Origin: Sphingopyxis flava
GTDB lineage: Bacteria > Pseudomonadota > Alphaproteobacteria > Sphingomonadales > Sphingomonadaceae
DNA: 64,000 nt
Direction of reading: 5' to 3'
NCBI RefSeq assembly: GCF_900168005.1
Contig: NZ_FUYP01000009.1
Span: 62,001-126,000 of the forward strand
Shown: piece by piece, positions 33,496-37,729 of the stretch
Layout: each line of letters begins with the position of its first letter
How positions within the stretch are numbered: position 1 is the stretch's first letter
Notes under the pieces: generated by a model
What the model was told of the DNA's origin: nothing
Database searches by the model: none
Seen by the model: the letters and a program-made list of their open reading frames with translations, nothing else
Made by a program: the position numbers and the translations under genes

Positions 33496-34284
33496 ATGGG
33501 TGGGCAAAAATCGGCCTTGCTGGCAGAAAGCATCTGCGACTGGTGGTCGCATGCGGGGGTAGACGCGCTCGTCGGCGAAAGGCCCGCAGGCTGGCTCCTT
33601 GCGCCGGCCGCAAATGACCCGGGGTCCAAGGCCCGCCCGCTTGCCCCTGTCGAAACCGAACCGCCACCCCTGCCCGCAGCCCTCCAGCGCCCGGCTGTCG
33701 AGGAGGCCGTCCCCCAAAAGAAGGGGCCGGTAAGCTTCCCCGACGACTGGAGCGGTTTTCAGTCATTTCTCGCAGAGCATCCCGACGTTCCGGGGAGCCA
33801 GTGGGACAATCGCCGTGTGCTACCGGTGGGCGCGCAGCGCGCCCCCTTGATGCTGCTCACCGCCTGGCCCGAGATCGACGACCAGCGCGAAGGCGCCTTG
33901 TTCAGCGGCGCGCCGGGCAAGCTTCTCGACGCTGCGCTGAAGGCGATCGGGACGGTGCGCACCGACTGCTACTTCGCCAGCCTCGCCGTCACACGCCCGC
34001 CGGGGGGGCGCTGCGATGCGCGTGATCGCGCCGAACTAGAAAGGCTGCTCGCCCATCATCTGGCGCTCGCCGATCCTGGAAAGCTGCTGCTGATCGGCGG
34101 TGACATTGTGCAAATGGCGGCAGGTCTTGCCCTTCCCGATGCCCGCGGAAGGTTACTCGATATTAACCATTCAGGCGGCAGGATAACGGCGGCAGCGATC
34201 GCGCATCCTGCGATGCTGCTCGCCCGTCCGGCCCACAAGGCGGCCGCCTGGGATAGCCTCAAACTGTTCAACCGGGGACGTTGA
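33496..34284 (+). CDS. Uracil-DNA glycosylase-like protein, degenerate active site
   Basis: 262 residues. The second half aligns with family 4 uracil-DNA glycosylases: EGALFSGAPGKLLDAALKAIG matches the RPFVGxAGxLLD segment, and AHPAMLLARPAHKAAAW matches the HP(S/A)YLL motif. Key features are missing. GEAPG is replaced by TAWPE, the motif corresponding to NVVKCRPP reads ASLAVTRPP, and there is no iron-sulfur cysteine set. The first 90 residues are low-complexity and Pro-rich. Probably a UDG-fold protein with changed or lost catalysis, or a non-enzymatic nucleic-acid binder. Three bases separate it from the transglycosylase gene. Confidence 0.72.
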   Translation: MGGQKSALLAESICDWWSHAGVDALVGERPAGWLLAPAANDPGSKARPLAPVETEPPPLPAALQRPAVEEAVPQKKGPVSFPDDWSGFQSFLAEHPDVPGSQWDNRRVLPVGAQRAPLMLLTAWPEIDDQREGALFSGAPGKLLDAALKAIGTVRTDCYFASLAVTRPPGGRCDARDRAELERLLAHHLALADPGKLLLIGGDIVQMAAGLALPDARGRLLDINHSGGRITAAAIAHPAMLLARPAHKAAAWDSLKLFNRGR

Positions 34285-34287
34285 CAG

Positions 34288-36057
34288 ATGAAAACCTCGA
34301 TTGCGGCATTGACCGCTCCGCTCCTTCTTTCCGCCGCGGCGACCACCTCGCCGGCGATGGCGACCGACGCCGGCGATCGCGCCTTGTACAGCGCGCCGCA
34401 GACGGTGCCGGGGATTCTTTCCTCGAAGCAAAGACAATTCTATTCGCAGGTTCTTGCAGCGATCCGCGGCGAGCGCTGGGCCGATGCGAAATCCATGCTC
34501 GCCGAGGCGAAGGACGGACCGCTCGACGATTTCCTCCGCGCCGAGTTCTGGCTGGCCGCCAATAGCCCGCGCGCTGAAGTCGCCGATCTCATGCCGATTC
34601 TCTCGCGCTCGCCCTGGCTTCCCCAAGCAGCCCAGCTGGGGCGTCTTGCCACGCGGCGCGGCGCGAGCGACCTGCCGGCCCTTCCTCCCGAGACGGCTCT
34701 TTCCTGGGCGGGTAGCGCGCCGCGACGTCGCGGCGCCGACACGGTCAGTGACCCCTTTGCAGCGGGCCTTGCGACGAGCATACCCGAGCGGATCAAGAAT
34801 GACGACCCCGCGGGCGCCGAGGCGCTGCTCAATGCAGTGCTCGATAAGCTCAGCCCCGAGGCCCGCGACGAGTGGCGTCAGAAGGTCGCATGGTCTTACT
34901 ATATCGAGAATGACGACGCGAATGCGCTGCGCCTGGCGGCGGACTGCACCAGCGGGACGAGCGCCTGGGCGACGCAGGGTGCCTGGGTGCGCGGCCTCGC
35001 CTCCTGGCGCATGCGCGACTATCCCACGGCGCTCGCGGCTTTCGACCGCGTTGCCAGGGAAGCGCCCGACAGCGAATTGCGAGCCGCAGGCTATTATTGG
35101 TCAGCGCGCGCCGCCATCGCCTCGGCCCGGCCCGATCTCGTCCAGTCGCGCCTGCGCGCGGCGGCTGCGAACCCCGAAACTTTCTACGGCCTGCTGGCGC
35201 GCGAAACGCTGGGCCAGGAAGCGGCCAGTCAGCGCGAGAGTCTGCGCGCTGATCGCAGCGCGTGGCGCGCGCTCGAAAAGCAGCCGAATGTCCGCGCTGC
35301 GATCGCGCTCGTGGAAATTGGCGAGGACAATTATGCAGGCGAAGCGCTCCGCCGCCAGGCGCGAATCGGCGATCCGCGCCAGCATGAACAGCTGATCAGC
35401 ATGGCCGAGGCATTGAGCCTTCCCGAGACTCAGCTCTGGCTTGCGCACAACACGCCGCAAGGCCGCAAGCTCGCCGCCTCAACGCGCTATCCGCAGCCAA
35501 GGTGGGAGCCCAATGGCGGTTGGAAAGTCGACCCGGCGCTGGTCTTCGCGCACACGCTTCAGGAATCGCGTTTCCGCCGCGCCGCGGTCAGCCCCGCGGG
35601 CGCCTATGGGCTGATGCAGGTGCGTCCTGGAACCGCGGGCGATGTCGCTCGCTGGGACGGCGACAAGATCAAGGCGGCACTTGAGGATCTCAAGACCCCG
35701 TCGGTGAACATGGATCTGGGCCAGCGATATCTTCAGTATCTGAGCCGCGACGCGTCGACCGGCGGGCTCCTGCCCAAGGTCATCGCCGCCTATAACGCCG
35801 GCCCGGCACCCGTCGCCCGCTGGCAGACCGAAATTCGCGATCAGGGAGATCCGCTGCTATACATGGAATCGATCCCCTATTGGGAAACTCGGGGCTATGT
35901 CGGCACGGTGCTGCGCAATTACTGGATGTACGAAGCGCAGCAAGGCAAGCCGTCGGTCAGCCGCGCCGCGCTCGCACAGGGCAAATGGCCGCGCTTTCCG
36001 GACAGCAAGGATCGCATCCGCCTGACCTGGGCTGGCGGCCTTGGCAATGCCGATTGA
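34288..36057 (+). CDS. Soluble lytic murein transglycosylase (Slt family)
   Basis: 589 residues. Signal peptide at 1 to about 26, then a long alpha-superhelical region as in Slt70. The C-terminal lysozyme-like domain has the catalytic glutamate in [20 protein letters not shown], then LMQVRPGTA and [11 protein letters not shown]. It cleaves peptidoglycan with formation of 1,6-anhydro ends in the periplasm. Length and domain order are normal. The last 11 bases overlap moaB. Confidence 0.93.
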
Positions 36058-36571
36058 TCCGGCCCTCCCCTTCAAGCCGGTGCGCATCGCAGTCCTGACG
36101 GTTTCAGACAGCCGCAGCGCGGCCGAGGACCGATCGGGCGATAGGCTCGAGCAATTGCTGACCGAGGCGGGCCACATTCTCGCCGGGCGCGCGATCATCC
36201 CCGATGAGGCCGACCTGATCGTGTCGCGCCTTCACAACTGGATCGACGATCCCGAGGTCGATGCCGTGATCACGACCGGCGGCACCGGGCTCACCGGACG
36301 CGACGTGACCCCCGAGGCGCTGCACCGCCTCGACGGAAAGGATATCCCCGGCTTTGGCGAACTCTTCCGCTGGCTGAGTTATCAGACGATCGGAACCTCG
36401 ACGATCCAGTCGCGTGCCTGCGCTGTTGTTGCGCGCGGCACCTATATCTTTGCGCTCCCCGGCTCGACGGGCGCGGTGACAGATGCCTGGGAGGGAATCT
36501 TGTCGGCGCAGCTCGATAGCCGGCACCGGCCCTGCAATTTCGTCGAGCTCATGCCCCGGCTGATGGAGTGA
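36047..36571 (+). CDS. moaB: Molybdenum cofactor biosynthesis protein MoaB
   Basis: 174 residues, MoaB/MogA fold. VLTVSDSRS at the N-terminus and [17 protein letters not shown] in the middle are the molybdopterin-binding landmarks. MoaB-type proteins adenylylate molybdopterin or support that step. ATG 36047 ([16 protein letters not shown]) is preferred over TTG 36041 two codons earlier. It overlaps the transglycosylase stop by 11 bases. No other moa or mob gene is in the window. Confidence 0.93.
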
Positions 36572-36604
36572 TCGCAGACCCCGGCAGGTGACGGGGCGAA
36601 GTTT

Positions 36605-36619
36605 GTTCTTTCTTTGTTC
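36605..36619 (+). promoter_or_regulatory. LexA (SOS) box before the radical SAM gene
   Basis: GTTC-TTTCTTT-GTTC exactly fits the alphaproteobacterial LexA consensus GTTC-N7-GTTC. It is nested in an eight-base direct repeat (TTTGTTCT twice), is AT-rich against a GC-rich background, and ends 24 bases before the GTG start of the radical SAM gene. Of the two such boxes seen in this window this is the convincing one. Confidence 0.7.
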
Positions 36620-36643
36620 TATTAATTGCGATAGTCTTGGGGG

Positions 36644-37729
36644 GTGCCTGCCAAGCCCCTTCCTCTCCTCGCCGGCCGCGGCGCGCCCGAAAACCCTCCC
36701 CCAGTTCGCACAGGCTCGCTCGCTCGCGAGGCCGACGGCGACTGGCTCGACGCGGCGGCCAATATCGACGGCGCACCGCCCCGATTGCGCACCACCGTAA
36801 CGATCGAGCATCCAAAGACCATCATCGCGCGCAACACGTCTCCCGACATCGGCTTCGACCGCTCGATCAACCCCTATCGCGGCTGCGAGCATGGCTGCAT
36901 CTATTGCTTTGCGCGTCCGACGCACGCCTTCCACGACCTTTCTCCCGGGCTCGACTTCGAAAGCAGGCTGTTCGCCAAGCCGGACGCGGCCAAGCTGCTG
37001 CGGCGCGAGCTGGCGAGCCGCAATTACAAGGTCGCACCGCTTGCCATCGGGACCAACACCGACGGTTATCAGCCGATCGAACGCGATTGGGGCATTACCC
37101 GGTCGGTGATCGAGGTGCTCGCCGAGGCAAGGCATCCGCTGCTCATCACCACCAAGTCCGATCGGCTCCTGCGCGACATCGATCTGCTGGCGCAGATGGC
37201 GAAGGACGAGCTGGTCGGGGTCGCGATTTCGGTGACCACGCTTGACGCGGCACTCGCCCGCACCCTTGAGCCCCGCGCGCCGCATCCGCAGCGCCGCCTC
37301 GCGGCGATCCGCGCGCTCGTCGACGCGGGCATCCCGACGCAGGTCAATATCTCGCCGATCATCCCCGCGATTACCGACCATGAGATCGAAGCTATCATGG
37401 CCGCCGCCGCCGGCGCGGGGGCGATCCGGGCTTCCTATATATTGATGCGCCTTCCCTTCGAGGTCGCCCCTCTGTTCAGGGCATGGCTGGCAGCGCATTA
37501 CCCCGATCGCGCCGACAAAGTGATGCATATGGTTCAGGACATTCGCGGCGGCCGCGACAATGATCCCAATTTCTTCAGCCGCATGAAAGGTCGCGGCATC
37601 TGGCCGCAGCTGATCCGCCAGCGAGTAAAGCGCGCAGCGCGCGCCCATGGTATGGACCGGAGCTTTCCCGCGATCCGCACCGACCTCTTCCGCCCGCCCG
37701 AACGCGGAGGGCAGATGGAATTATTCTGA
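36644..37729 (+). CDS. Radical SAM protein, PA0069/SplB-like family
   Basis: 361 residues. The 4Fe-4S cluster motif CEHGCIYC (C81, C85, C88) is followed by the TIM-barrel features IGTNTDGYQPIE, LLITTKSD and GVAISVTTLD. The conserved start RNTSPDIGFDRSINPYRG is typical of the PA0069 group, which is related to spore photoproduct lyase but has no proven reaction. The GTG start at 36644 follows a G-run that can serve as ribosome binding site. A perfect SOS box lies 24 bases upstream, so a role in DNA damage repair or response is a reasonable inference. Confidence 0.9.
   Translation: MPAKPLPLLAGRGAPENPPPVRTGSLAREADGDWLDAAANIDGAPPRLRTTVTIEHPKTIIARNTSPDIGFDRSINPYRGCEHGCIYCFARPTHAFHDLSPGLDFESRLFAKPDAAKLLRRELASRNYKVAPLAIGTNTDGYQPIERDWGITRSVIEVLAEARHPLLITTKSDRLLRDIDLLAQMAKDELVGVAISVTTLDAALARTLEPRAPHPQRRLAAIRALVDAGIPTQVNISPIIPAITDHEIEAIMAAAAGAGAIRASYILMRLPFEVAPLFRAWLAAHYPDRADKVMHMVQDIRGGRDNDPNFFSRMKGRGIWPQLIRQRVKRAARAHGMDRSFPAIRTDLFRPPERGGQMELF

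Follow-up and report, generated by a model that had tools for sequence, protein, structure and literature searches.

A predicted LexA operator at the promoter of a PA0069-family radical SAM gene in Sphingopyxis flava and its conservation among proteobacterial orthologues

A gene for a radical SAM protein of Sphingopyxis flava is closely preceded by a sequence of the form GTTC-N7-GTTC, which raises the questions of whether this sequence is a genuine LexA operator and, if so, on what substrate an enzyme made under SOS control would act. The locus lies in a window of 64,000 nucleotides, by which we mean the whole stretch of DNA analyzed here. An exact check of this sequence placed the site GTTCTTTCTTTGTTC (GTTC-TTTCTTT-GTTC) at positions 36605-36619 of the forward strand, with 24 bases (36620-36643) between the box and a GTG start codon at 36644; position, sequence, spacing and orientation were all exactly as proposed in a first-pass annotation of the window. 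The features on which the following discussion draws are these:

33496-34284, forward strand: uracil-DNA glycosylase (UDG)-superfamily gene, 2.4 kb upstream of the radical SAM gene
36605-36619, forward strand: predicted LexA operator (SOS box), from the exact sequence and its conservation upstream of orthologues
36609-36614, forward strand: predicted -35 region TTTCTT, within the box spacer, from the spacer consensus of 165 boxes and the distance of 17 bases to TANNNT
36632-36637, forward strand: predicted -10 hexamer TAGTCT (TANNNT), from T28, A29 and T33 conserved in congeners
36644-37729, forward strand: PA0069-family radical SAM gene, 361 aa, GTG start, assigned by NF033668 and PF04055
36884-36907, forward strand: codons of the CX3CX2C [4Fe-4S]-binding motif (C81, C85, C88), invariant in 62/62 orthologues

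Upstream of the radical SAM gene and on the same strand, the UDG-superfamily gene, a lytic transglycosylase gene and moaB follow one another in a row (the four genes together spanning 33496-37729 of the window). Since the gene directly 3' of the radical SAM gene is encoded on the opposite strand, the latter stands alone.

For this organism, GTTC-N7-GTTC is the LexA motif to expect, because its own lexA, recA, uvrA and other such genes carry it upstream. Both lexA and recA have this box in front of them in the genome, the lexA match on contig C57 (105079-105747, reverse strand) having its box at 105788-105802, 40 bases before the first matched codon. A comparison with the lexA, recA and imuAB promoters, as the first-pass annotation had suggested, found the same motif upstream of lexA, recA and two ImuA-like genes, and boxes are also present upstream of uvrA, radA, rmuC and a pcrA/uvrD-like gene. 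The two ImuA-like genes (C35:101921; C118:53612), whose scores are below the NCBI cut-off, each have a box of their own, and one of them lies about 2 kb from an SRAP-match frame with a further box near its own start; the position of this last box relative to the start is ambiguous, and it may sit inside the gene. Further boxed genes encode a 2OG-Fe(II) oxygenase, a superfamily that includes AlkB, a ribonucleotide reductase, and rSAM_link_UDG (TIGR03916, 551 bits), the box of the latter being located just upstream of the matched part (C110:68177-68191, reverse strand). Well-scoring boxes are found as well beside genes without a known repair role, namely a VOC-fold gene, a GST-like/CinA-like divergent pair and a glycerol kinase gene, all named by eye. 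When the 94 genomic sites were scored with a spacer matrix derived from 67 orthologue boxes (the window's own box excluded, three Sphingopyxis relatives included), the window box ranked second, a rank that expresses likeness to the orthologue boxes on which the matrix was trained and is no measure of best binding. For most of the 94, the spacer is poor and a chance match probable.

A bare motif count is on its own no proof of an operator and could be due to chance. The window contains 4 sites versus 1.43 expected, and 4 or more were obtained in 8 of 100 shuffles, while the whole genome contains 94 matches versus 79 for the reversed control pattern; with only slight enrichment in both window and genome, motif counts were rejected as evidence. 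What argues for a real box is its conservation upstream of orthologues, far above chance. A named set of 80 orthologue loci was assembled, of which 69 are alphaproteobacterial by title (one titled only Proteobacteria being included) and 11 are beta- or gammaproteobacterial. The exact box lies within 300 bases of the match start in 67 of the 69 named alphaproteobacterial loci, and the other two carry it with one mismatch. First-order Markov resampling of the same upstream stretches (500 rounds) yielded a mean of 0.37 boxes and a maximum of 3, as opposed to the 67 observed, and the rest of those loci, used as background, has 17 sites over 371,767 bases when both orientations are counted. The moaB promoters of the same loci carried the box in 0 of 44. 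We also considered moaB as the true target of the box; a moaB match occurs in 45 of the 80 orthologue loci, even with 2.5-kb flanks, and this candidate was rejected, because moaB precedes the box on the same strand and is itself without one in all 44 testable loci.

In sampled genomes of the class, the PA0069 family is present in 155 of 289, with 143 scoring over the curated cut-off. An exact forward box was found in 97 of 110 class-sample loci (29/30 and 68/80), a count that covers 110 of the 155 loci and stands apart from the window's own genome and 44 others, several with partial genes. The 13 loci lacking an exact forward box comprise two with a reversed box, eight with one mismatch upstream and three with none, and at one of these three the sequence ends 42 bases upstream. 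Among the 99 class-sample loci having an exact box, GTTC is oriented towards the gene in 97. The two exceptions are genomes of the same family (f82), which, unlike the other 97, carry an inverted box, GAAC-N7-GAAC, at -99 from the match start; the operator appears to have been flipped or rebuilt there. Of 60 genomes sampled from the genus, 59 gave a family match (55 over the cut-off), and the box was present in 30 of the 30 examined. The one congener without a family match has a small, 2.3-Mb genome. The named and genome-sample collections may overlap in species, and their counts are not additive. The first-pass annotation had let its proposal depend on whether the box is conserved before orthologues, and the box survived this in the named set, the class sample and the genus. 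For comparison, 24 of 30 lexA loci carry the box, these being partly from other genomes and with 300 bases scanned versus 450, and within these terms the frequency of the box before the PA0069 family is comparable with that before lexA. Judged from this frequency and from the class-sample count, the PA0069-family gene behaves like a core SOS gene.

In other classes of the phylum, a different motif is found at the corresponding place. The 11 named beta- and gammaproteobacterial orthologues have an exact CTGT-N8-ACAG in five cases, a copy with one mismatch in one and none in five, and Aquisalimonas lutea, a named gammaproteobacterium, has the exact motif before its orthologue. Among sampled genomes from other classes of the phylum, exact CTGT-N8-ACAG occurs at 14 of 21 loci and is absent in exact form at seven, the 21 being counted apart from five further such genomes over the cut-off. 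This swap of motif across classes suggests that LexA control has often been kept where LexA reads another motif.

Alignment of the box-bearing loci revealed a common architecture downstream of the first GTTC half. Over 165 loci, the spacer consensus is TTGNTT, and TANNNT follows after 17 bases, occupying positions 28-33 as counted from the first base of the box. In-frame start codons fall at position 40 in 60 loci and at positions 39-41 in 96 of the 165, and in 73 of these 96 TANNNT lies no more than one base from position 28. The 69 loci without a start at 39-41 include 33 that start at 16-32 and 36 that fit neither class. A TANNNT within the box itself, from position 9 on, was seen in 12 of the 33 loci of the 16-32 class and also in 22 of the 96 loci of the 39-41 class, and separates the start classes poorly. 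Starts at 39-41 go with TTG spacers (79/104 versus 17/61 for others; Fisher p 1.8e-9, uncorrected for shared ancestry); the window's spacer is of the TTT type, of which 11 of 17 start at 39-41.

The same architecture is visible as a footprint within the genus. Across 31 sequences from congeners, conservation is 100% in the two GTTC halves and 65-100% in the spacer; T28 and A29 stand at 97%, T33 at 90% and the start-codon TG at 94-97%, while the surrounding intergenic positions have drifted, mostly to 32-77%. The GTG codon of the window occupies box position 40, the predicted +1, and the spacing between -10 and start codon fits and is conserved. In the simplest reading, the LexA operator is probably wrapped round the -35 of a promoter for a leaderless mRNA. 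In the window itself, both hexamers, TTTCTT at -35 and TAGTCT at -10, are weak, and the -10 might instead be TATTAA at 36620-36625, which would give a 12-base leader.

The encoded protein matches NF033668 (rSAM_PA0069) over its full length with 465 bits versus a cut-off of 360, as well as PF04055, and its nearest named relatives are from Sphingopyxis (85-87% protein identity). It fits the PA0069 family without difference, the family model being a hypothetical equivalog with no assigned reaction. Rv2578c is the name of a sister family. The cluster motif, described as intact in the first-pass annotation, reads C81-E-H-G-C85-I-Y-C88, and its CX3CX2C pattern is kept in all 62 aligned orthologues. 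The rSAM_link_UDG gene of the same genome resembles the PA0069-family gene in being radical SAM, in its name as a putative DNA modification or repair protein and in its LexA-type box, but belongs to another family, and its name implies a partner of the uracil-DNA glycosylase type, whereas the PA0069-type gene stands alone.

A structure model predicted from 62 orthologues (pLDDT 84.8, pTM 0.83; residues 1-7, 26-32 and 358-361 poor) has spore photoproduct lyase (4fhc, 4k9r) as its best PDB match, with a Foldseek value of 2e-8 and Z 17.9. The superposition covers 264-268 residues at an rmsd of 3.5 and 13% identity; lipoyl synthase is the next family (Z 14.7), and NifB and PFL-activase are further structural matches. 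The previously claimed kinship to spore photoproduct lyase holds in the fold of the predicted model. By sequence, the family profile gave no match to the lyase chains at E up to 1 and profile alignment only a weak 82-column stretch; the motifs TK, EP and RLAAxR are common to orthologue and lyase sequences in a sequence alignment.

In spore photoproduct lyase, Cys140 (4fhc numbering) is the hydrogen donor, and Tyr98 next to the cluster is important. Alignment programs pair Cys140 with residue 130, which is Cys in 19 and Pro in 23 of the 62 orthologues and Val in the window protein. Judged from the preceding strand in the model, residue 137 would be the likelier counterpart, and this residue is T, V, S or A, never C, in the 62 orthologues. 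The residue-by-residue alignment with the lyase around Cys140, in which the aligners choose residue 130, was rejected as unreliable. Because of this, the argument about the cysteine rests on two other observations, namely that no invariant Cys beyond the three cluster ones exists among the 62 orthologues and that the window protein has no Cys at all outside the cluster motif. The counterpart of Tyr98 is F89 in the window protein, with F in 53 and Y in 9 of the 62. With no invariant equivalent of Cys140 in the family and Phe mostly in the place of Tyr98, the enzyme is probably not a spore photoproduct lyase; it is probably better described as a radical enzyme of the spore-lyase fold and not to be filed under the lyase name. 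The two share the predicted fold and the CX3CX2C cluster, and they differ in that the PA0069-family gene is under predicted LexA control, whereas the spore photoproduct lyase gene is sporulation-controlled.

Several other explanations of the locus can be weighed against this evidence. That the box is a chance match in front of a constitutive gene agrees with the barely enriched bare motif in both genome and window, yet is scarcely credible in view of the conservation in the named set, the class sample and the genus together with the footprint among congeners. A more serious proposal is that the protein is after all a true spore photoproduct lyase, which reverses 5-thyminyl-5,6-dihydrothymine and whose amount is raised by SOS after UV; the lesion may also arise in dry non-spore DNA, and this proposal is near the 'splB' reading of a 2012 paper that gives the gene that name (PMC3323433). 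A Paracoccus SplB-like protein has likewise been proposed as the main photolyase of that organism (PMC3925955), and the DNA photolyase domain PF00875, matched in 8 of 14 control genomes, has no match in the whole genome of the window. The lead of the lyase among the structural matches by about 3 Z units, the three common motifs and the Cys found in part of the orthologues at residue 130, the position that the aligners pair with Cys140, also speak for such an identity. We nevertheless consider it quite unlikely, given the absent extra invariant Cys, the Val of the window and the Pro of many orthologues at residue 130, the lack of any Cys at residue 137, the prevalence of Phe in place of Tyr98 and the failure of the family profile to match the lyase chains by sequence.

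Alternatively, LexA control may be real while the enzyme has a target other than DNA lesions, for example an RNA, a nucleotide or a protein in damage recovery. The diversity of the radical SAM superfamily, exemplified by lipoyl synthase, NifB and PFL-activase as the next structural matches, would allow for this, as would the frequent neighbor moaB, for which we know of no repair role, and the well-scoring boxes beside the VOC-fold, GST/CinA-like and glycerol kinase genes. However, the spore-lyase fold match leads clearly, many boxed genes of the genome are DNA repair genes and the UDG-superfamily gene lies near in the window, and a non-DNA target appears to us somewhat unlikely.

We hold it very likely that the radical SAM gene is under LexA control via the box at 36605-36619. 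The box, its conservation and the promoter/start-codon footprint are read directly from the sequence, and from them we infer LexA binding, induction and a leaderless transcript. The operator would form part of the core promoter itself in an SOS unit of one gene, where its spacer would supply the -35, the TANNNT -10 would follow 17 bases on and the start codon would coincide with the predicted +1, making the mRNA probably leaderless. In undamaged cells, LexA would cover the -35 and block RNA polymerase; upon damage, RecA-driven self-cleavage of LexA would free the promoter and the PA0069-family radical SAM enzyme would be made. Its cluster site would then serve the reductive cleavage of SAM to a 5'-deoxyadenosyl radical, acting most likely on a DNA lesion, with the hydrogen presumably returned otherwise than by the Cys140/Tyr98 path of the spore lyase. 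The cluster motif is read from the sequence and the fold is predicted by a model, while the DNA substrate and the reaction are putative; the DNA-lesion step is, in our judgment, reasonably likely, and a role in the repair of DNA lesions plausible.

The regulatory idea itself is not new, a 2012 study having predicted that LexA controls 'splB' in alpha- and betaproteobacteria (Sanchez-Alberola et al., PMC3323433). In that study, SplB-like genes of both classes were preceded by sites of the LexA type, in the motif proper to each class, and the same argument for control kept despite motif change was made from a smaller set. Because the Rhizobium, Agrobacterium and Burkholderia loci examined here carry the PA0069 family with such sites, the 2012 splB and the PA0069 family are probably the same family. 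The earlier work was directed at species with several chromosomes and saw no gammaproteobacterial control, in contrast to Aquisalimonas lutea here; it read the enzyme as one of photoreactivation, and its splB section is without promoter anatomy (PMC3323433). Added here over the 2012 prediction are the breadth, the promoter anatomy and the failed test of spore-lyase identity.

Other reports touch on the subject. A 2013 paper connects SplB-like proteins with SOS operons (PMC3765255). Parallels by name only are a 'Radical SAM protein' included in a table of LexA ChIP-seq/RNA-seq results for Streptomyces venezuelae (PMC9380542), the RecA-dependent induction of a 'DNA repair photolyase' by mitomycin in Mycobacterium tuberculosis (PMC8151990) and a 'DNA repair photolyase SplB' among the DNA-repair genes up-regulated in Pseudomonas fluorescens under EGCG (PMC5435343). 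Two early SOS genes of Caulobacter are likewise preceded by such a box, GTTCttgttatGTTC (PMC12700426), and may or may not include the orthologue of the PA0069-family gene. Searched for by terms, the PA0069-family gene was not found in papers on the SOS response of Caulobacter and Dinoroseobacter. Literature searches by family name gave no match; the name PA0069 itself occurs in one paper of the literature searched, and Rv2578c in two. Nor is a leaderless LexA/SOS promoter of this type described in the titles and abstract starts of the literature matches listed. The PA0069 gene of Pseudomonas may already have appeared among reported LexA targets.

Tentatively, and as a possibility that we rate well short of even, the PA0069 family might join photolyase and spore photoproduct lyase as a third way of directly reversing DNA damage. 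The enzyme would work without light by radical SAM chemistry, would have a lesion and a hydrogen-return residue of its own, and would have stayed under LexA across at least two LexA motifs; its leaderless mRNA would come from a compact unit of operator, -35 and start codon. The question of the lesion attacked by SOS-induced radical SAM enzymes is hereby narrowed to one gene, amenable to deletion and assay in laboratory strains, and the interest now lies in the lesion and the reaction of this enzyme rather than in its regulation.
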